From positions 29,937-93,936 of IMG/VR virus record IMGVR_UViG_3300049846_002551: a DNA stretch of 64,000 nt. One strand, given 5' to 3'. A program made the translations under genes and the position numbers. The notes under the pieces are model-generated. The model did not search any database and was not told where the DNA came from. It saw nothing but the letters and a program-made list of their open reading frames with translations. Below are positions 29,816 through 48,274 of this stretch, one piece after another (within the stretch, counting starts at the first letter, position 1; every line of letters starts with the position of its first letter). This DNA is from a virus.

Positions 29816-31851
29816 TTCTAGAAAAAGAGTTAACAGGATTACCAGACGGGTGTCATTTAAACCCAATGCAGGAACTATTAGTTCCGCATATTAATGAGCA
29901 TTACAATATTGTTGTTGCGGCTCCTACTGCTTCGGGGAAAAGCCAAGCGATTACTATGTTTGGTTATAAGCACTTACGCAATAAGAAAAGGGTTTTGTAT
30001 ATTGGTATCATGAGAGCTTTAGCACAAGAGAAGTTTGACGATTGGCAATTACCAACTCACCCTTGGAGTAAGTATGCTAAGACTGTAATCAGCGGTGACT
30101 ACCGCATGGACACGGATAAACAAAAAGAAATTGATGCGGCTGAGATTATTTGTATTACCCCGGAATCTTTGGCGTCGCGTTTAAGGCATCCTCATTCACC
30201 ACGGAATCAATGGTTACATGAAGTCGGTATTTTGATTGTCGATGAATGCCATTTGCTTTCTGCGGATGATCGTGGAACCAACATGGAAGCCGCATTGATT
30301 GAGTTCACATATGAATTTCCGGACGTACAATTAATCGGGTTGTCTGCGACTCTTCCTAACGTTGATGAAATTGGTCACTGGTTTACAATTCTTAATAACA
30401 AGGAAACCTATGTTATTGAGAGCGAATATCGTCCTGTTGTTTTGGAGAAGCATTTTATGTCTTTCTCGAACACGGTTCGTGAAGCGATGGAAGAAGAGAA
30501 ATTAGCTATGATTGATCAGTTAGTTTGCGACGAGAAACCTGATCAGCAGTTTTTGATTTGTGTATGGCAGAAAACATGGGGAAAGAAGATTGAAGAGTAT
30601 CTTTCGAACAAAAAAGTGCCTGTAGCATTTCACAATGCGAATTACGATAAAGGTACGCGCAAAAACATTGAGCAATCTTTTAAAGACGGTAGAATTCGAG
30701 TACTGATTAGTACGTCTACTTTGTTTACAGGGGTTAATCTTCCTGCCAGGAACGTAATTATTACCGCAGTTGATATTGCACGAATGGATATTCCAGTTTA
30801 CGAGTTGCAACAGGCGATGGGAAGAGCAGGTCGCCCAAAATACGATACTGAAGGCGACGTTTACATTATGGTTCCTAGTCAACGCTTTAGCTATCATCAG
30901 CGGCGTATTTTGACAGGAGAACCTGTGCGTTCTGTATTGCACAAAGAAGAATGGTTGGCGATGCATTTTTTAGGTGCTCAATATCTTGGACGCATTGATA
31001 ATTTTGAAGGGTTTAATTTATGGTTTAACCGCACGTTAACACAATATCAAAACAATTTCCCGAAAGAAGTGAAAGAAAGCATGCTTTCCAATATTTTGGA
31101 TGATATGCGTATGCGTCGTATGATTATGTATGACGATTACACGAAGCATTTTCGTTTGGCACATAGAGGAAAAATTGCGGCGCAGATGTATATGGACCCC
31201 TATCACTTTAGTGATGCGCTGATCAATCTTTCGAAGTATTTTTCGCTTGTGAACCCGAACGATATGGATTTAGCTGTAGCGTTGGGTTCATGTCGAAAGT
31301 TTTCTGAGAACTCTATTTCGAATCGAGAAAAGTTGGCGATTCCAGATGAGGTTTTATTGCGGCAGGATGTTCTGAAAGCGTATATTAAGTCGATCAGCGT
31401 TATTTGGTATAGAATTAACGGAAAGCCTGTTCCGGAGCTTTTGTCAAATGTTAATTTTAAAATTTTTGATGATTTTCCGCGCTTGCATGCGGCAGTGGCA
31501 AGAGCAAATAACGAAGTTGAGCGTTGGAAGAGTATTACTCCGGAGAAACTTGATATTCTTTTTATGCGAGTTATTTTGAAATGTTCGGAAGAGCAAGCGG
31601 AGTTAGGGCTTAAAAAATTTACGAGCAACGAGCGCAAAAAGCTGTTAGCAGTTGGAATTTACTCGGTACGTGATGCAATGAATAATTTGGGTATGGTTCT
31701 AAAAGTTATTCCGCATATTCGATGTATAGAATTAGGGTTGATTAAAGCTGGAGCTAAACCGCCAACCGTGAATTCGGATGGTGTTGTAGAATACGCGGAA
31801 GTTTCCTCTAATCGTGGATTTGTTGGAAAGCGGGGTTTTGGAAAGCGATGA
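29812..31851 (+). CDS. Ski2/Hel308-type superfamily 2 helicase
   Basis: A 679-residue SF2 helicase of the Ski2 group. Walker A is APTASGKS (about 38-45), motif II DECHLL (about 143), motif III GLSATLPN, and the diagnostic motif VI is QQAMGRAGRPKYD (about 333). The Hel308/Ski2-like winged-helix and helical C-terminal region fills the last 250 residues. Family members unwind forked DNA or RNA; here replication fork processing is likely. The C-terminus ends RGFVGKRGFGKR, a basic tail shared with the gene ending at 37403. ATGA overlaps link it to both neighbours. Confidence 0.83.
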   Translation: MILEKELTGLPDGCHLNPMQELLVPHINEHYNIVVAAPTASGKSQAITMFGYKHLRNKKRVLYIGIMRALAQEKFDDWQLPTHPWSKYAKTVISGDYRMDTDKQKEIDAAEIICITPESLASRLRHPHSPRNQWLHEVGILIVDECHLLSADDRGTNMEAALIEFTYEFPDVQLIGLSATLPNVDEIGHWFTILNNKETYVIESEYRPVVLEKHFMSFSNTVREAMEEEKLAMIDQLVCDEKPDQQFLICVWQKTWGKKIEEYLSNKKVPVAFHNANYDKGTRKNIEQSFKDGRIRVLISTSTLFTGVNLPARNVIITAVDIARMDIPVYELQQAMGRAGRPKYDTEGDVYIMVPSQRFSYHQRRILTGEPVRSVLHKEEWLAMHFLGAQYLGRIDNFEGFNLWFNRTLTQYQNNFPKEVKESMLSNILDDMRMRRMIMYDDYTKHFRLAHRGKIAAQMYMDPYHFSDALINLSKYFSLVNPNDMDLAVALGSCRKFSENSISNREKLAIPDEVLLRQDVLKAYIKSISVIWYRINGKPVPELLSNVNFKIFDDFPRLHAAVARANNEVERWKSITPEKLDILFMRVILKCSEEQAELGLKKFTSNERKKLLAVGIYSVRDAMNNLGMVLKVIPHIRCIELGLIKAGAKPPTVNSDGVVEYAEVSSNRGFVGKRGFGKR

Positions 31852-39553: not shown

Positions 39554-40100
39554 TTTATCAGCGGCGAGAGTTTTTGGGTTAGGATATTTTGACGCAACAG
39601 AGGCTAGTCCGTTTTATGATAGGTTGATGATTCCTATTCATGACGCTTATGGAGAACTTGTTTCTTTTCAAGGTAGGGCACTATTTAATTATGAACACAG
39701 TGGTGCGCCAAAATATTATCATGCACCTTTTGAAAAGAGTACGGTTCTTTATGGGCTATGGGAAAATGCTTCATGGATGGTGGAAGAGTCCTACGCTGTT
39801 ATTGTCGAGGGACCATTAGACGTGATTGCCTTATGGGACGCAGGAGTTCCTGCAATCGCAACAATGGGAACTTCATTTTCTCAGGCTCAAGCGTATTTGT
39901 TTAGGCGTTACACGAAGAAAGCGGTGTTGTGGTTGGATGCAGATGTCGCAGGTGAAAAAGCACGAGAGGTTATTCGTAGAAGTCTTTCACCATTAGGCGT
40001 AGTGATCTCTGAAGTTTCGAAATACAGAGTTTACAAAGATGCAAGTGACGCATGGCAGAAAGCAGGACACGATGGGATCAAGAGAGAACTAAATGGATAA
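39471..40100 (+). CDS. Stand-alone primase catalytic (Toprim) domain
   Basis: The 209-residue protein equals the DnaG catalytic core: FYDRLMIPIHDAYGELVSFQGRA is the TOPRIM_N signature, VIVEGPLDVIALWDAGVPAIATMG is the Toprim EGxxD part, and AVLWLDADVAGEKA is the DxD metal site. No zinc domain is present; that is encoded at 29342, about 10 kb away. I used GTG 39471, preceded by GGAG, since the domain needs the full N-terminus. It overlaps recA by 83 bases. The last residues overlap the next start. Confidence 0.82.
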   Translation: MDGPILEYHQRLLESPKSLRYLKNRRISLSAARVFGLGYFDATEASPFYDRLMIPIHDAYGELVSFQGRALFNYEHSGAPKYYHAPFEKSTVLYGLWENASWMVEESYAVIVEGPLDVIALWDAGVPAIATMGTSFSQAQAYLFRRYTKKAVLWLDADVAGEKAREVIRRSLSPLGVVISEVSKYRVYKDASDAWQKAGHDGIKRELNG

Positions 40101-40503
40101 AACGATGAAAGATTCGGAATCTTATTGTGCAACTATTTACACAAAATACACGAGTATTCTACGGATTGTGGTTTCCATACAAGAATATGTTTTGCGAAAT
40201 TTTTCAGCAACAGGTTTGGTTACAGATTTTCCTGTAGTGGCATTTGATAGTTCAAGTACTCGACGTAAGAATGCTTGCGAAGTCTGTACATTTATAAAAC
40301 CACAGTTGATTATTGGACCTGAAGCTGAAGTAGACGACGCGATACAAATGTATGTGCGTTTGCTGGTTGAAGAGTACTGTTATAGGTATCGCTCCATTAC
40401 TAACATCCAGTTGGATGTAAGGGAGTTCGACATTAAAAATGATAAATGGCGCGATTACCTTAAAGGAATGATTCTTGGTTCAATATCAGGTATGGCACTT
40501 TAA
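40093..40503 (+). CDS. Hypothetical protein
   Basis: The 136-residue product starts at ATG 40093 inside the primase gene's end and stops at the first base of the next gene. It contains CATIYTKYTSILRIVVSIQ and a CEVCTFIKPQ pair of Cys, with a C-terminal region LDVREFDIKNDKWRDYLKG. No known fold is apparent. Tight overlaps on both sides support coding. It may work with the adjoining Rad50/Mre11-type genes. Confidence 0.55.
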   Translation: MDKTMKDSESYCATIYTKYTSILRIVVSIQEYVLRNFSATGLVTDFPVVAFDSSSTRRKNACEVCTFIKPQLIIGPEAEVDDAIQMYVRLLVEEYCYRYRSITNIQLDVREFDIKNDKWRDYLKGMILGSISGMAL

Positions 40504-41537
40504 TGAAAACACTTGCTAAAGTAGAACTAAAAAATTATCGCTCACATGAATATAGTGTGATTGAGTTTGGAATGTTGACTTCTATCATTGGAGAGAATGA
40601 TGCTGGGAAGAGCAACGTGTATAGAGCTATTAATATGGTGCTCCTTAATCTTCCGTTTTCAGAAGCACAGTTACGTTATGGAACGAAAGAAGGTTCGGTA
40701 AAGATTACGTTTAGCGATGGAAGCACAATTATTCGAATGCGGAAGGGTTCTAAACAATCGTGCCAGTTATTTGATACAGTTAAAACAACCACCTATGAGA
40801 CTATTAAGGATATCACTTCCATTGTTCAAGATTTTACAGGTTTCAAGCAAGTAATACTTGACAAGAATTCTAGACCGGAATCTATTCAATTAATTCCTCT
40901 GAATTCGCCGCAATCTTATTTAGTAGATGGTACGTCCACCGATGGAGTACTTCGGCGTGTTAATCGATTGATGTCTGGTGCAGGTATTGAAACTGCTCGA
41001 ATCTCATTGGAGAAAGAGTTACGAGTTTTAGAAAAATCTAACGCGAGTTTAGAGACGGAATTAGAAAAGCAACAAGCCATTGTGGATTACCTTTCTCGTG
41101 ATGAGTGGGAAGAGTTTGATGAATGTTTGAAATCCACTAACGAACGCTTACTCCAATTGGATAATTATGAAGAAGTTGTGGCTGTGATTACGGAGTTTGA
41201 ACCTTTTTTGAAACAAATTGACCATCTAGTTACGGCGCGAGATGTTTTTGCAGATAGTTTAAATGAAGTATACGCTTTAAAGGAAAAAATTGAAAAGCTT
41301 GAAGTAGTTACAAATTTGAATTCGTTGTTATTTAACGCGCAGAAAGTGATAGCTGAGAACTTAGGGTTGTTAGATAAGGAATACGAGCAAGACGACGAGT
41401 TGAAAAAACGATTGCAAGAAGTGCAGGACAAAATTAATAAAGCGACGGCAGAGCATTTAGCTCAAGTCGCTGAGGAAGAGCGCATTAAAGCGTTACAGGA
41501 TAAGAAAATTTGTCCAGAGTGTAAGAGGCCACTATGA
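40503..41537 (+). CDS. SbcC/Rad50 N-terminal half, ending at a zinc hook
   Basis: A 344-residue protein with Walker A GENDAGKS (30-37) and the start of the SbcC/Rad50 ATPase fold (VELKNYRSHEYSVIEFG), then long coiled coil (VLEKSNASLETELEKQQAI to EYEQDDELKKRLQEVQDK). It ends KICPECKRPL, so the CxxC zinc hook (C337, C340) is the C-terminus. The descending coiled coil and the Walker B half are missing; they appear in the gene at 42746. Rad50-type proteins tether DNA ends with the Mre11 nuclease, whose homologue is the next gene. Confidence 0.8.
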   Translation: MKTLAKVELKNYRSHEYSVIEFGMLTSIIGENDAGKSNVYRAINMVLLNLPFSEAQLRYGTKEGSVKITFSDGSTIIRMRKGSKQSCQLFDTVKTTTYETIKDITSIVQDFTGFKQVILDKNSRPESIQLIPLNSPQSYLVDGTSTDGVLRRVNRLMSGAGIETARISLEKELRVLEKSNASLETELEKQQAIVDYLSRDEWEEFDECLKSTNERLLQLDNYEEVVAVITEFEPFLKQIDHLVTARDVFADSLNEVYALKEKIEKLEVVTNLNSLLFNAQKVIAENLGLLDKEYEQDDELKKRLQEVQDKINKATAEHLAQVAEEERIKALQDKKICPECKRPL

Positions 41538-42484
41538 GTAAGTTGTCAATTGTTTCTTTTACAGACCCCCATATTCGGATGACAACTCCGCAAGCCAGAT
41601 GTGACACAAACTGGTTGGAGCAATGTTTAGGACAAGTAGAAGCTGTATTCAATTTTGCGAATCAAAAGCGCGCAAGGGCCGTCGTTTGTTCTGGAGATGT
41701 GGGGGATTCTCCGGCTTGGAGTGACTTAGCGATTGTTGGTCTGTATAAAATTTTAGAGCAATACAAACATATTCCATTTATTACGACGGTGGGACAGCAT
41801 GATGTACGGGGTCATCAGATCGCTGATTGGAGGCAGTCGTCTATTGGTTTATTGTCGCTGTTAAGTAATCTAGTAACCGTTTTAATTGGAGGGCAATCGA
41901 TTATTTTAGATAGAAAGCTGGAGATTTTTGGTTTCGGATTCAATGAACCAGAAACGTTAGCTTTTCTAGACGGCAAGTTTCCTTTTGATGTTAATAGCAA
42001 ATATTTTCGAATGGCTTTAGTACATGCTCAAGTGGGACCATCAGAATCGATGGGTTGGCAAGGAATTGAAAACCAAAAATTACAGGGATGTCAAGTAGCA
42101 AGCTTTGGGGATATTCATTGCGGGTTTGAACCTTATGAATTTCCTTCTGGAACAGTTGCTTATTCAACTGGGAGTCTAGTGCGGAGCAGTTTAACCGACA
42201 TGGGGCGAACTCCGATGTGTGCGGTAATTGAGATTCTTGAAAATCAAGAGTTCACGTTGGACTTCCATGAAATTCCGGATGGTGATGATAGTGTTGTGTT
42301 CTACAATAACGCTGTGGTAGATTCAAGTGTAGATACCGCGATTGAGTTTAAAAACATGGTGCAAAAAGCGCGAGAGCATCAAGACGAAACTCCTATTAAA
42401 CGACTACAGCGTGTTGGAGTTGACAATGGATTCACTCAAAAGCAAATTGATTTAGCCATTAATAAATTGGAGGATGTGGACTGA
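41534..42484 (+). CDS. SbcD/Mre11-like nuclease
   Basis: The 316 residues match the SbcD/Mre11 calcineurin-like phosphoesterase fold: FTDPHIR for motif I, VVCSGDVGDSP for motif II, TTVGQHDVRG for motif III, and LVHAQVG and FGDIHCG for the last two. Motif III usually reads GNHD and the last GHxH; here GQHD and GDIH replace conserved metal ligands, so activity may be altered. The capping domain is the short polar C-terminus. ATGA overlaps with the neighbours place it between the two Rad50-like halves, as in sbcD/sbcC operons. Confidence 0.8.
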   Translation: MSKLSIVSFTDPHIRMTTPQARCDTNWLEQCLGQVEAVFNFANQKRARAVVCSGDVGDSPAWSDLAIVGLYKILEQYKHIPFITTVGQHDVRGHQIADWRQSSIGLLSLLSNLVTVLIGGQSIILDRKLEIFGFGFNEPETLAFLDGKFPFDVNSKYFRMALVHAQVGPSESMGWQGIENQKLQGCQVASFGDIHCGFEPYEFPSGTVAYSTGSLVRSSLTDMGRTPMCAVIEILENQEFTLDFHEIPDGDDSVVFYNNAVVDSSVDTAIEFKNMVQKAREHQDETPIKRLQRVGVDNGFTQKQIDLAINKLEDVD

Positions 42485-42777
42485 TGGATTTGAATGAATT
42501 GAAAGCAGAATATCGGAAACTAGAGGTAAATGCAAGAGATGTATCTCTAGCCATCGGTCAGCATGAAGCAAAATTAGATCATGCGTTAGAATCTTTAAAG
42601 TCGGCTATTCCAGATTTAGATATTTCTGATCCTAGGGCAATTAATTTTGACAAGTTGATGAAGGACACCATTAAAGAGCAAAATAAATTGTCAAGTCAAC
42701 TGGAATCGGAACTTGAAGTTTTAAGGGAGCGCATCGAAAAAGCCAATGATGGACTACAAAAGCTTATCGGAAATTAG
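42484..42777 (+). CDS. Coiled-coil accessory protein of the SbcCD-like complex
   Basis: This 97-residue protein is nearly all heptad-like helix (LNELKAEYRKLEVNARDV; EQNKLSSQLESELEVLRER). It sits between the SbcD-like nuclease and the Rad50 C-terminal half, overlapping the latter by 32 bases. A plausible role is part of the returning coiled-coil arm of the split Rad50, but this is inference from composition and position. No ATPase motif is present. Confidence 0.6.
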   Translation: MDLNELKAEYRKLEVNARDVSLAIGQHEAKLDHALESLKSAIPDLDISDPRAINFDKLMKDTIKEQNKLSSQLESELEVLRERIEKANDGLQKLIGN

Positions 42778-43408
42778 TCATACGTTGTATGGCGAATTAA
42801 TCGCCCATGCGCGAATTAAGAGTAGCGAAACTTCTCGATTAAAAACGATAGAGTCTGTTGTTAATACGAATCGCACCGACATCGAAGATTACAAAGCGTC
42901 GATTAACCTATGTCGCGTTTGTATTCAAGAACAGGCGGCCTCGAAAGAGCACATAGAAAACATTATCACTACACTTCTTAATGGAGTAATGAGCGGTGTG
43001 CATACGCAGTACGCTTTTGCTGGGGATATTCCTTATTACGAATACAAATTAGAAGAAGTTATTGATGCGGTTGGAGCCGTGGTTGGATTAAAGCCAACAG
43101 TGTATAAAAACGGGGTTGCAGATGATCCGGATAGTTTTGGTGGGGGAGTACAAAACCTGATCAAGTTTGGGTCCAATCTTATTCATGTTCTATTAAATCC
43201 AACTATTTCTCCGGTGGTGATTCTCGATGAACCAATGACCAATCTCTCCCCAAAAGCTTGGAAATTCGTGGTGAGGTTTTTGGTGGATTTGCAAAAGGAT
43301 TTAGGTATTCAAGTGGTTGCCATAACCCATTCAGGGGCGCAGTTTCCGGATACTTGGATGGTTTGGCGTGAGGGCCAAACTTCCTATGTTAGGTATTTGG
43401 AAGAATAA
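42746..43408 (+). CDS. SbcC/Rad50 C-terminal half (signature and Walker B)
   Basis: The 220 residues begin with coiled coil (ISHTLYGELIAHARIKSSET), then an ABC-type signature region DSFGGGVQNLIKFG, Walker B PVVILDEPMTNLSP with D-loop-type continuation and a final VVAITHS switch histidine. This is the C-lobe of the SbcC/Rad50 ATPase, the partner of the N-lobe at 40503. Only two to three heptads of coil are left, so the arm is far shorter than in cellular Rad50. It ends the recombination operon; a non-coding gap with a probable promoter follows. Confidence 0.8.
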   Translation: MMDYKSLSEISHTLYGELIAHARIKSSETSRLKTIESVVNTNRTDIEDYKASINLCRVCIQEQAASKEHIENIITTLLNGVMSGVHTQYAFAGDIPYYEYKLEEVIDAVGAVVGLKPTVYKNGVADDPDSFGGGVQNLIKFGSNLIHVLLNPTISPVVILDEPMTNLSPKAWKFVVRFLVDLQKDLGIQVVAITHSGAQFPDTWMVWREGQTSYVRYLEE

Positions 43409-43470: not shown

Positions 43471-44133
43471 ATGCCAAATGCTGTAGCACGACTTGAGTGG
43501 CCTAGCGGCGTCTCGACTTTCGAAGCTTTGATTGCGATTGCCGGACGGGTAGAGCAACAATTAAACGGAAACGGGGACCCTGTTTATATAGGGTACGCGC
43601 CGAAAGCGGATTCTAGAACTGATGCGGATGGGTGGATTATCGAGTATCGAATTTACGATGCGTCGAATAAACTTTTGACTATTCATAGAAAAGCCGGATT
43701 CTCATGGAATTCTCGGACAGCGGTTATGGCACTGGTTCATTTGAAGGATATTGCTCCGGCAAATGCTCACGTTAGTATGGCTGGTAATGCAAGGGCTGTT
43801 CAATATGAACGCGGAGCCGGACTTGGGTCTTTAGTTTTGAATCAAATCGGAACTATCGCTTATAAGAAAGTCAAGGTTGCACGATTTTCTGCGGCATCTC
43901 AGATCAAACTTTTGCAAGGACGTTGTTTACCAAGTTCGCTGATTCGCGCCTACATGGGAGTTAATCAACTTTCTATGTCGGCAACTGTTAGTGATGCGGG
44001 GACAGTTCAATTAGGTGTCGGTGTGCTTGGTCAAATGGATGTACAGTCGACTGTTCGTTCTGGATCATACAAAGGTGGATTCGGTGTTGGAAGGATGGTA
44101 ATTTCGGCTACTGCTAACGGCATCCAGGTTTAA
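43471..44133 (+). CDS. Hypothetical beta-rich protein
   Basis: The 220-residue protein is Ala/Gly/Val-rich with alternating strands (AVQYERGAGLGSLVLNQIG; VSDAGTVQLGVGVLGQMDV) and ends in VISATANGIQV. It could be a minor virion or internal protein; nothing specific supports this. It is monocistronic, with a leader that has a recognisable Shine-Dalgarno and a new promoter-like element before the next gene. Confidence 0.55.
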   Translation: MPNAVARLEWPSGVSTFEALIAIAGRVEQQLNGNGDPVYIGYAPKADSRTDADGWIIEYRIYDASNKLLTIHRKAGFSWNSRTAVMALVHLKDIAPANAHVSMAGNARAVQYERGAGLGSLVLNQIGTIAYKKVKVARFSAASQIKLLQGRCLPSSLIRAYMGVNQLSMSATVSDAGTVQLGVGVLGQMDVQSTVRSGSYKGGFGVGRMVISATANGIQV

Positions 44134-44948: not shown

Positions 44949-45579
44949 AATCAGAGAATTGCGCGAGAAGTATGTGGCATCTTTAGACCAAGAAAACGCT
45001 CCGGCTATTGCTACATTCTGTCAAGATAACGGTTATACCGATGATGCGGATATCAAAAAAGTTTTGCGCTTGGCTAAAAAAGAAAATTGGGAAGCGCATC
45101 GAGTTAAACGTCGTGCTAAGTTGGCTCTTGCGCTGGAAAAACGCGAAGATAAGCTTATAGCCAAACTTGCTGATGATATGATGCAGGTTAGAGAAGGCTT
45201 TATCAAGGATCAAATCAATGAAGTCAATGATTTGCTTCCGAAAATGATTGAAGAGCTTAGAGCGAGAATGGAGACAGGGTTTTTTGACGATAAGGCTTTG
45301 ATACAAGGCATTAAATTGATGATGGAATCTCGAAGTTCCTTAATGGCTTTAATCGATAAACAATACGGTTCCGATGCTAACGCTAATGTGGCGCAACAGG
45401 GCAATCTGTTTGATTTTTTAAACCGATTGGCTTTTCTAAGTCGACTGGTTGAAGTGAATGACGGAAAAATTTCATCGGTTACATTGGACCCTTCAAACTA
45501 CAAACATTTGAGTGAGCAGGATGACAAAGAACGCACCGCTCTTACGGAATTAGATTCGGAGGTGCTCAATGAGAAATGA
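44932..45579 (+). CDS. Probable small terminase subunit
   Basis: The 215 residues are mostly helical with a central coiled coil (LEKREDKLIAKLADDMMQVR, EVNDLLPKMIEELRARM), and its end overlaps the large terminase start by 11 bases. Small terminases have an N-terminal DNA-binding part and a helical oligomer core and are nearly always next to terL. The N-terminal segment SEIRELREKYVASLDQENAPAI and TDDADIKKVLRLAKKENW could be that DNA-binding helix pair. No specific domain match is visible, so the call rests on position and composition. Confidence 0.6.
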   Translation: MLTASEIRELREKYVASLDQENAPAIATFCQDNGYTDDADIKKVLRLAKKENWEAHRVKRRAKLALALEKREDKLIAKLADDMMQVREGFIKDQINEVNDLLPKMIEELRARMETGFFDDKALIQGIKLMMESRSSLMALIDKQYGSDANANVAQQGNLFDFLNRLAFLSRLVEVNDGKISSVTLDPSNYKHLSEQDDKERTALTELDSEVLNEK

Positions 45580-48274
45580 GATTGATTCTCAAATTCACGA
45601 ACGACTTATACAAAATAAAAAGCGCGAAGCATGGGATGCAGATAGCAAAACTGTTATCGAGCATGCGCTTATGATGGGTCTTGAAGATCGAGAAGAGCTA
45701 GTTCGTAAAGCTAGAGATTTAGCTTGTACTCAAGCACCACGAACACCGACAGAGCTATGGCATGCGATACACCTTTTATTCGGGTACAAGGTTCCTTTGA
45801 CTTCTACACATCCCGATTTTAATGCACCATTTGAATGGTTTAGCAAAGCATATTTTAATGTTACAGATGACTCGGTTGCATTAGCAAGTCGTGGTTCTGG
45901 AAAAACATTGTTAGGTTCAATTCTTACAGCTATTAAATCTATTTGGAATCCTGGTTATGAGGCTGTGCATGCTGGTGGCACACAGGTGCAAGCGCACGTG
46001 GCGTCATCTTATTTGAATACGTTCTATACGTTTCCGCATTTCAAACCTTTGTTCGATGGCAAACCTGCAAAGTTTTCTGCAAGCTGGAAGAACAATTCTC
46101 AATTCAAGATCGTGACTGGAAGTATGAAAGGTGTGTCTGGTCAGCATCCTATTTTATTGACGCTCGATGAGATCGAGTTTTGGGAAATTGAAGCTTTAAC
46201 ACAGACTTTTGAAGTTCCTGTAAATAAGCAAAATTATCGGCGCGTGTGGACGGCATTCTCTACTAGACAACGATGCTTACCTGGTTATACACGAATTTTA
46301 ACCGAAGATGGGCCAATGAAAATTTCCAAGGTGGTTCGTACTCGCTATGCTGGAAAAGTTAAATCTTTTAATAGTGTAACTCAAGTATGGGAATGGAAAC
46401 AAGTTATTGATTGGTACCACAATGGTTCGAGTAGCGAATGGTTTAAAATTTATCTTGAATATACAGGATTAGGTCGGGGTTGTGAATTAATTGCAACAAA
46501 AGAACATTATGTTTACTATGCTCCAGGCAAGAAAAAACCTCTTGATCAGTTTGTAGAAGGAGATTGTTTATGTTTGCCATCTTGGTGTCCAAGCGGTGAT
46601 CAACGTCAATTATTATTAGGAACGCTGTTAGGGGATGCCTGTCTTAGTGGTGGTTCTTTACGCGTGGAGCATTCTAGCAAACAAGTTAATTATTTACGTT
46701 GGTTTGGTAGAGCTTTTAAAGAAGAAGCGTTGCCAGAAGATTATAATGAGAAGCGGGATCATTATCTACAGCGTTTAAAAGTTTCTCCATATTTACATAG
46801 ATTACAAAAAGAATGGTATCCCGATAAAGTTAAACGAATTCCAGATTATGTATGGGAAGAGCTTGACGAAAGAGGACTTGCAGTTTGGTTAATGGATGAT
46901 GGTTCATATCGTAAAGCGGGTACTAATAACGGTGGTGACACTTGGCATATTTATTGTAATCATTTTAATTCTCATGAACGCGAACAAATGCAGAAATGGT
47001 TTAAATGTCGTGGAGTTTATTTAACATGGATGGAGATGCGTCCTGGACAATTTTATGCATATATTGGTGGAGCCTACGCTCGTCTTGTTACAGAGATGGT
47101 AAAAGCGTATATTGATGTGTCTACACACCTCGGTGTGCGACAAGGATGGAAACGATGGGTTGCTTCTGATTATGTAGAAACAGGGCATGAAGGTATTGAA
47201 CAGGTGCCTATTCGTAAAATTGAAGTGCTACAAACAAATCCACAAGGATGTTATGACATTGCCGTAGAAGGAAATCATAATTACTGTAATGGTTCAAATA
47301 TATTAGTTAGCAATTCTTATGGATGTATGAACTGGTTAGTCGATGAGGCACCAAAAAGAGGTTTTTCGTTTTTTCAGTGGTCTGTGTTTGAAGTTATGCA
47401 ACCATGTATTACGTGTGAAGCTTTGGATAAAGAGCCTTATGGAGATGATGAAGCGCGTGAGTGCGTTTGTCCCCTATGGGAAGCTTGTAGAGGTGAACGC
47501 GCTAAAAAATCAAGTGGGTGGCTTCCACTAAAAGATGCACGTGATAAGTGTATTCGGTTAGGTGGACCACGTGGGAGAGAATGGCAAACACAGGGCTTGT
47601 GTAATCGCCCATCTAGTCATGGATTAGTTCTTCACAATTTTGAGCATACTTACAGACCGGATGGGAACTACACGAAGTGGGAGTACAATCCGGAATTACC
47701 GTGGTACGCAGTGCATGATCCTGCGGAGGGCAAAAAGTCTGTTATATATTTTTTGCAAATTTATGATGGTATGACATTTGTGTTTGATGAGTTAGTTGAT
47801 CCGTTATGCCCGGATGTTACCACTGCAAAACAAGCTTTCTATGAGCATTGTTTGCGAATGAAGTACCCCGATCCTGAAAAGATAGTTGTAGACCCGCATC
47901 GAACGGACGCAGTTGCTACATGGAAGTTTGGATCAAAATCTGGAGTCGGTATTTTACACTCGTATAGTGCAGATGTCCCTGATATTTCTGAGGTTTCTGG
48001 CGTTACTCAGTTCTTAACTAAAACGATTGAATTGTTGCGTCAATCAATTTGTGATGGTCGTAATCATCGTAAGCTTTTTATCAATCCAGAATATTGTCCG
48101 CATGCGGTTCGCGGAATAAAAGAGTACCACTATCCAACTGATAAGGTTACTAATGACGTAAATTCAGATATACCACAAAAAGATTATTCGGATGAAGTTG
48201 ATCCCTTACGATATTGGGAGATGTATCGTGTTACGAAATTAAATCAAGGTGGTGGAAGAATTCTTGTTTTGTAG
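45569..48274 (+). CDS. Large terminase (TerL) with intein
   Basis: The 901-residue precursor is the packaging motor. The ATPase has Walker A ASRGSGKT (about 107-114), Walker B ILLTLDEIEFW and the coupling motif TAFSTRQ. An intein (236-582) follows immediately. The nuclease half has the strand YAVHDPAEGKKSVIYFLQ with its catalytic Asp, and KIVVDPHRTDAVATW. Its Cys-rich linker (CITCEALDKEPYGDDEARECVC, CPLWEAC) may bind zinc. Excision leaves about 554 residues, normal for TerL. Start ATG 45569 overlaps the preceding gene. Confidence 0.88.
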   Translation: MRNEIDSQIHERLIQNKKREAWDADSKTVIEHALMMGLEDREELVRKARDLACTQAPRTPTELWHAIHLLFGYKVPLTSTHPDFNAPFEWFSKAYFNVTDDSVALASRGSGKTLLGSILTAIKSIWNPGYEAVHAGGTQVQAHVASSYLNTFYTFPHFKPLFDGKPAKFSASWKNNSQFKIVTGSMKGVSGQHPILLTLDEIEFWEIEALTQTFEVPVNKQNYRRVWTAFSTRQRCLPGYTRILTEDGPMKISKVVRTRYAGKVKSFNSVTQVWEWKQVIDWYHNGSSSEWFKIYLEYTGLGRGCELIATKEHYVYYAPGKKKPLDQFVEGDCLCLPSWCPSGDQRQLLLGTLLGDACLSGGSLRVEHSSKQVNYLRWFGRAFKEEALPEDYNEKRDHYLQRLKVSPYLHRLQKEWYPDKVKRIPDYVWEELDERGLAVWLMDDGSYRKAGTNNGGDTWHIYCNHFNSHEREQMQKWFKCRGVYLTWMEMRPGQFYAYIGGAYARLVTEMVKAYIDVSTHLGVRQGWKRWVASDYVETGHEGIEQVPIRKIEVLQTNPQGCYDIAVEGNHNYCNGSNILVSNSYGCMNWLVDEAPKRGFSFFQWSVFEVMQPCITCEALDKEPYGDDEARECVCPLWEACRGERAKKSSGWLPLKDARDKCIRLGGPRGREWQTQGLCNRPSSHGLVLHNFEHTYRPDGNYTKWEYNPELPWYAVHDPAEGKKSVIYFLQIYDGMTFVFDELVDPLCPDVTTAKQAFYEHCLRMKYPDPEKIVVDPHRTDAVATWKFGSKSGVGILHSYSADVPDISEVSGVTQFLTKTIELLRQSICDGRNHRKLFINPEYCPHAVRGIKEYHYPTDKVTNDVNSDIPQKDYSDEVDPLRYWEMYRVTKLNQGGGRILVL
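46274..47314 (+). mobile_element. Intein with LAGLIDADG endonuclease in TerL
   Basis: The 347-residue insert begins CLPGYTRILTEDGPMKISKV (block A, Cys1) and ends CNGSNILVSN with Ser+1 of SYGCMNW following. LLGTLLGDACLSGG and GLAVWLMDDGSYRKAG are the two LAGLIDADG-type motifs; LRVEHSSKQVNYLRWFG fits the family. Block B-like CELIATKEHYVYY is present. The penultimate residue is Ser where His is usual, so Asn cyclisation may be assisted differently. It is inserted directly after the coupling motif of the ATPase. Confidence 0.88.

Follow-up and report, generated by a model that had tools for sequence, protein, structure and literature searches.

In the usual picture of Rad50, a single chain extends to a zinc hook and then returns; can the protein be cut at that hook into separate genes and be maintained in this form? 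The question is raised by a locus in a 64,000-nucleotide stretch of viral DNA (the window, meaning the whole stretch analysed), which covers positions 29,937 to 93,936 of the 93,936-base IMG/VR virus record IMGVR_UViG_3300049846_002551. A preliminary description of the window had read the locus as a Rad50/SbcC broken at its zinc hook, the gene for a nuclease standing between the two halves, and the sequence and its relatives uphold that reading. Four overlapping genes very probably encode a split Mre11–Rad50 (SbcCD-type) complex. Separate reading frames encode lobe I with its arm and hook, the nuclease, a small protein here called S, and lobe II. Judged by sequence comparison, phages that are very divergent share this division, even where the halves lie far apart in the genome.

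The locus and the identity of its parts

All four genes, and the motifs given below, lie on the plus strand. The N-half (lobe I, long helical arm, and terminal hook; 40503–41537, 344 amino acids) was assigned by profile and AlphaFold model, and the Mre11/SbcD-like nuclease (41534–42484, 316 amino acids) by a profile of 29 relatives. S (42484–42777, 97 amino acids), is a coiled-coil protein between the nuclease and the C-half; in relatives, a small coil open reading frame (ORF) occupies the corresponding position. The C-half (short coil and ATPase lobe II; 42746–43408, 220 amino acids) was assigned by profile and model, and is present in single copy in the record. The N-half and nuclease genes overlap by four bases (ATGA), with the nuclease start inside the last N-half codons; the start of S sits on the nuclease stop (TGATG), and the C-half overlaps S by 32 bases in a different frame. 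These stop–start overlaps suggest coupled translation. No reading frame in the window links the N-half to the C-half, and a complete nuclease gene intervenes. The finer points of the preliminary description also hold: the first gene stops four residues past CPEC, with the ending ICPECKRPL, the second has only the signature and Walker B lobe (FGGGVQN, VVILDEP, and ITHS), and the nuclease and the 97-residue coil lie between them.

Matches of single sequences were modest; the N-half alone clears the Pfam curated cut-off (AAA_23, AAA_15), while the C-half and the nuclease fall just under (Metallophos for the nuclease), and profiles were therefore used. A profile of 28 N-halves searched against PDB found Rad50 first (E 1.9e-17; best SMC 5.4e-13). 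The Walker A motif (P-loop) GENDAGKS (40590–40613) has G30 and K36 in 28/28 N-halves, the N-arm is one predicted helix (residues 159–333, 40977–41501; AlphaFold single chain, block-mean pLDDT 76–93 over residues 171–330), and the zinc-hook motif CPEC (residues 337–340, 41511–41522) has C337 and C340 in all 28. A profile of 34 C-halves likewise found Rad50 first (E 1.8e-15). C-halves open directly with coil and carry the ABC signature core GGG (residues 132–134, 43139–43147; G in 33, 31, and 34 of 34 rows), Walker B VVILDE (residues 157–162, 43214–43231; D161 and E162 in 34/34 rows), and the H-loop His195 (43328–43330; 33/34 rows). The C-half model (mean pLDDT 82, pTM 0.67) aligns best to the C-lobe of P. 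furiosus Rad50 (Z 12.1, 161 residues, 3.4 Å), with an SMC head at 10.9. Walker A is found only in the N-half, and the signature, Walker B, and H-loop only in the C-half, with the key residues conserved in each.

For the nuclease, the profile of 29 sequences found Mre11 first in PDB (E 2.1e-17), which places it with Mre11/SbcD. The window protein carries D11, H13, D55, H89, H164, and H195, positions that we take to match the Mre11 metal ligands; D55, H89, H164, and H195 are invariant in 29/29 nucleases.

The set thus has what marks Rad50/SbcC: a lobe I with Walker A that is nearest to Rad50 by sequence profile, a CxxC hook recognized as a motif, and a lobe II with a GGG-type signature, Walker B, and H-loop that is again nearest to Rad50. 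The canonical Rad50 architecture, with both lobes on one chain and the hook in the middle, is absent. Because the lobes are on two chains and the hook is not in mid-chain, the gene set is classed as a split variant and not as an ordinary Rad50. It does not belong with SMC proteins, as no Pfam match to an SMC hinge domain was found and the N-half terminates at its CxxC. A comparison with anti-phage ATPases (AriA, GajA, LmuB, and PtuA) that covered the proteins of the locus, and not the partner genes of those systems, gave matches of 59 families to the N-half (best AriA, E 8.4e-11) and of none to the nuclease; the named neighbours of the locus are replication and recombination genes.

Distribution and conservation of the split

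When viral contigs were first scanned with single sequences, one locus and then none came up, so profiles were needed. Profile scans yielded at least 54 and 34 loci, followed by 11 contigs from GTDB and the 80 best of 358 IMG/VR places; isolated phages were searched with six tblastn queries against 50,697 phage records, a search that may miss more distant relatives. The C profile matches 139 of 189 loci (the window counted twice, as W and L001), and the C-half is a chain of its own in 138 of them, the exception being L017, an ordinary 953-residue SbcC. The profile was built from split C-halves, which leaves distant continuous proteins under-represented, but it would have caught any fused gene that carries a lobe of the split-C family. 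When loci sharing a 60-residue word are merged and the window is counted once, 114 of the 138 are distinct. The order N-half, nuclease, S, C-half occurs in 84 of these, and the rest lack only the N-half (8), only S (7), or the nuclease (2), or consist of S and C-half (3) or the C-half alone (10). The N-half is absent from 21 of the 114, mostly where the fetched DNA starts close upstream; four loci (L098, L114, L134, and L180) have more than 3 kb upstream yet no N-half, and those of phages Magritte (L096) and Tunturi_5 (L097) have N-halves elsewhere in the genome.

The terminal position of the hook is nearly universal, with a CxxC no more than 30 residues from the N-half end in 91 of the 93 distinct loci that have an N-half (L079, whose N frame is broken in two, being counted by its hook-bearing piece). 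As a control, a CxxC was found within the last 34 residues in 18 of 401 other open frames of 250–520 residues. The exceptions are L137, with a degraded hook, and L147, which continues from the hook into a NUMOD4/HNH endonuclease; Magritte stands outside this count.

The split is common in metagenomic virus contigs and rare among isolated phages. The design had been called rare in the preliminary description, which is correct for isolated phages, with four among the 50,697 records (Mvi-JY20, vB_BboS-125, Magritte, and Tunturi_5), and incorrect for virus contigs from metagenomes, among which a single scan found 358 relatives of the C-half. Microcystis phage Mvi-JY20 and the IMG/VR locus L005 have the same four genes in the same order; their N-halves, ending in CSQC plus 14 residues and in CESCNRPLI, are 28 and 30% identical to that of the window. 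In Bacillus phage vB_BboS-125, one of the seven loci without S only, the order is N-half (CPLCEQTHKGGGC), AP2/HNH endonuclease, 78-aa coil, C-half, 118-aa ORF, and, last, the nuclease, whose gene (L006 4977–5957) is unannotated in the deposited record. Homing endonucleases are seen at the split junction, namely the AP2/HNH gene right behind this N-half (L006 3137–3709) and the NUMOD4/HNH domain fused in frame directly past the hook in L147 (426–2018). C-halves are also carried by eleven contigs of metagenome-assembled genomes (L098–L108), assigned to Bacteroidota, archaea, WWE3, and others.

Two of the isolated phages have distant halves. The jumbo phage Tunturi_5 (308,711 bases, deposited as complete and circular) encodes its N-half as gp181 (485 aa, ending in CGKCGDPISKSAA), together with gp180, a 97-aa coil just downstream, and the SbcD-like gp177, on the minus strand near 124–128 kb. 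Its C-half, gp14, is encoded on the plus strand at 19.1–19.7 kb, at a distance of about 107 kb to the N-half. The S profile gives no match to gp180, which is like S in size and place only. In Microbacterium phage Magritte, the N-half is at 93.8–94.9 kb, the nuclease at 119.7–120.7 kb, and the C-half at 0.3–0.9 kb. N-half, nuclease, and C-half are present in all five records searched, that is, the window's own record and the four named phages.

Selection was estimated as the ratio of nonsynonymous to synonymous change (dN/dS) in 18 pairs of relatives over stop-to-stop frames, where genes without differences give no value. Among L083, L087, and L088, the ratios were 0.23–0.28 for the N-half, 0.09–0.12 for the nuclease, 0.07–0.17 for S, and 0.05–0.09 for the C-half; for L062/L063, they were 0.09, 0.17, and 0.06 for the nuclease, S, and the C-half. 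The pair L075/L093 is near saturation (N-half 0.35, nuclease 0.17; S and C-half not computable), three pairs show one synonymous change in one gene, and L079/L081 gives 1.05 for the N-half, the frame of which is broken in L079. The low ratios indicate constraint on S as a protein within the groups compared.

Continuous phage relatives (37 names, two proteins listed twice) have the CxxC in mid-chain, for example at residue 291 of 570. Matches in Paenibacillus and Virgibacillus phages were rejected as examples of the split design, as the two that were read are continuous (509 and 503 aa) with a central CxxC. A tree of a sample of 41 split rows and 29 of the 37 continuous rows, gappy ones being dropped, sets the split group apart from 28 of the 29 continuous proteins with support 96. 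A single origin of the split is likely from these sequences; it is not proven, because the very divergent continuous protein of Neutron clusters with Mvi-JY20 and the window (97, the value shown once the tree was rerooted), perhaps through long-branch attraction.

Cellular Rad50 is one chain. The locus shares with cellular Mre11–Rad50/SbcCD the ABC-type lobes, the hook motif, and the Mre11-type nuclease, as the first PDB profile matches indicate, but here Rad50 is cut at the hook into separate genes and a small coil protein is added. T4-like gp46/gp47 and continuous phage SbcC (the label T4-like is applied here) are likewise phage-encoded and have the hook motif, with an Mre11-type nuclease beside several. 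The comparison set, which comprises the continuous loci of L013–L060 including L017 and L021 (L042, L043, and L051 in this range are split), differs in its mid-chain CxxC and in the lack of an S profile match (nothing better than E 2). L086, of the core family, matches PHROG 16465 ("exonuclease") with its N-half (E 5e-40) and PHROG 15167 ("ATPase") with its C-half (2e-31); these are separate families whose descriptions draw no link between them. The window halves match these two more weakly (1.3e-13 and 1.3e-4); their first PHROG matches are phrog_77 (SbcC-like, 1.1e-16) for the N-half and phrog_4747 (unknown, 1.1e-6) for the C-half. Viral Mre11/Rad50 fusion proteins, as presented for Mimivirus R555 and others (PMC3175470), are likewise rearranged complex genes of the opposite kind, with nuclease and ATPase fused. 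In the giant phages SPN3US/phiKZ, PMC5105663 gives SbcC (gp186, 95.7 kDa) as one chain with both lobes and places the SbcC and SbcD genes apart; the complex genes are scattered there too, but only SbcC is separated from SbcD. No natural split Rad50 is described in the literature searched, which largely excludes subscription journals. Relative to the published fusions and scattered SbcC–SbcD genes, a conserved natural Rad50 split at the hook would be new.

The S protein and the length of the arms

The S profile finds S in 97 of the 114 distinct loci. At 1e-3 it is absent from seven N-bearing loci (the window, L002, L005, L006, L068, L082, and L094), each of which has a small coil ORF or a weaker match in the S position; a profile of the window-group S against the common S profile gave 43% probability. 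On the five records, the S profile had no match in four and one weak, doubtful match in Magritte, inside a 347-residue frame. Against PDB, S found only unrelated helical or coiled-coil chains, the best being a designed protein (4.8e-4). By eye, it reads as a two-helix hairpin.

The N-arm, measured from lobe I to the hook, has preferred lengths. Among 87 N-halves (four more could not be anchored), it has 189–202 residues in 65 (exactly 198 in 42), 147–155 in 10, and 242–245 in 5; seven arms are off these steps (178 in the window, 208 in three, and 213, 256, and 302). In arms of 185–215 residues, the top self-similarity is at lag 47, exceeding the heptad lag of 7, and in the 42 arms of 198 the pattern LxxLhxxI...h...hE..h..h is common to three successive 47-residue segments counted from the hook. 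Lag 47 ranks only third among several in the window arm. The N-arm of L094 (1716–3005) shows a very strong 48-residue self-similarity (0.75), as if by a recent tandem duplication within the arm. S (median 79) and the C-arm (median 56) are both nearly constant. Over 80 loci, the window excluded, the medians are 198 for the N-arm and 135 for S plus C-arm, and N-arm length (147–245) does not correlate with S plus C-arm (Spearman 0.14, p 0.21), with S alone (0.19, p 0.10), or with the C-arm alone (-0.22, p 0.05).

The arms match in continuous Rad50; those of L021, the sole continuous protein anchored, are 203 and 206 residues. S might be simply the missing distal return helix, one copy per arm, which would be compatible with a split Mre11–Rad50 complex. 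This is also the simple form of the assembly from separate arms foreseen in the preliminary description, with S and the C-half as the return arm, and for the window the lengths roughly agree: the N-arm of 178 is close to S (97) plus the C-arm (about 60, from alignment), and the S gene is located between the genes of both halves. Across the family the proposal fails on length, since a single return strand should track the N-arm, which varies in steps of about 47 residues while S plus C-arm stays nearly constant; the hairpin reading of S also speaks against it. We consider this role possible but rather doubtful. The lack of correlation leaves repeats that pack on themselves, several copies of S, or another partner. 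One tentative and fairly unlikely form of these is a modular multi-chain Rad50, in which the arm is a row of 47-residue repeats, their number varied between phages (about 151, 198, or 245 residues), and S is a repeat-binding hairpin clamp, possibly in several copies. If this were true, a modular Rad50 ring could open and close at non-covalent seams, with its reach tuned by the number of repeats.

Assembly, alternatives and meaning

In the proposed split complex, an N-half and a C-half would join at the head to form one Rad50-type nucleotide-binding domain, and a pair of these rebuilt heads would clamp DNA and ATP and form a dimer with two nuclease subunits. At the far end, the CxxC motifs at the C-termini of two N-halves would hold one zinc ion and so link the two; chain ends would then form the apex of the ring, and the ring would have protein–protein seams. 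S would be part of the complex, probably packed along the N-arm. By analogy with T4 gp46/gp47, the probable task of the complex is the processing of DNA ends in recombination-dependent replication, because the neighbouring genes include a TOPRIM primase, a UvsX/RecA-like recombinase, and a resolvase-like (RusA-like) gene.

Other frames lie near the locus. A 136-aa ORF immediately 5' of the N-half (40093–40503), in whose position Mvi-JY20 has a 120-aa ORF, and a 220-aa ORF immediately 3' of the C-half (43471–44133) have no significant Pfam or PHROGs match. A 901-aa ORF at 45569–48274, by eye a terminase large subunit, is interrupted in frame by an intein-like insert that contains a LAGLIDADG endonuclease (Pfam, residues 346–479, E 6.5e-18) and an intein-splicing match below the cut-off; the Mvi-JY20 ORF in the matching region has 553 aa (homology by eye only).

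Several observations weigh against a split Mre11–Rad50. The AlphaFold model of the N-half has a pLDDT of 76 and a pTM of 0.34, with a weak stretch at 105–145, and Foldseek places a cohesin SMC head first (3.5e-6), Rad50 second (1.4e-5), and RecN/RecF lower; for the C-half model, it places the B. subtilis SMC head first and Rad50 second. The Q-loop column of the window holds P, with Q three residues upstream. At two metal-site positions of the window nuclease, the N of GNHD is Q88 and the first H of GHxH is D193 (Q in 13/29 and D in 18/29 nuclease rows). The Magritte N-half (L095 3001–4053) lacks a CxxC and is thus a hookless split Rad50, and the S profile found no convincing S in this phage; neither, therefore, is essential everywhere. 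For the window's own genes no close relative turned up, and dN/dS comes only from other loci. Since Foldseek puts SMC heads first, structure cannot by itself tell Rad50 from SMC; what separates them is the sequence profiles together with the hook and the presence of a nuclease partner.

The source is a metagenomic virus record and the relative L079 does show a broken N-half frame, so the possibility had to be considered that an ordinary sbcC gene had decayed, or had been broken by a frameshift or an error in sequencing; the frameshift had already been raised in the preliminary description. Such an origin is hardly credible, because a whole nuclease gene lies between the halves and the same separation recurs at 114 distinct loci, phage genomes deposited as complete among them, with purifying selection in close pairs of relatives; on this sequence evidence the split in the window is genuine and not a frameshift. 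Fractured phage genes with split inteins are known, and the gene at 45569–48274 has an intein-like insert; nevertheless, a product rejoined by protein or RNA trans-splicing is very improbable, as 112 of 115 N-half frames stop 2–30 residues past the hook, which leaves no space for an intein half, the C-halves begin at once with their coil, and RNA joining in Tunturi_5 would need to span 107 kb and opposite strands. The scattered halves of Magritte and Tunturi_5, and the missing hook in the former, could also mean that the halves no longer cooperate, the hooked N-half and the C-half each serving another partner. This is improbable given the division of the ATPase motifs between the halves, neither of which hydrolyses ATP alone in the Rad50 scheme, and given that N-half, nuclease, and C-half occur together in five of five records.

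A split Mre11–Rad50 complex with its hook kept, its chain cut at that point, and its halves tolerated far apart suggests that Rad50 can do without a covalent turn at its apex, with the hook retained in almost every case. The phages would offer natural separate pieces for studying how the arm signals from hook to head, with Magritte as a natural hookless variant. Proteins filed as "exonuclease", "ATPase", and "hypothetical" would thereby be tied together as parts of one machine.

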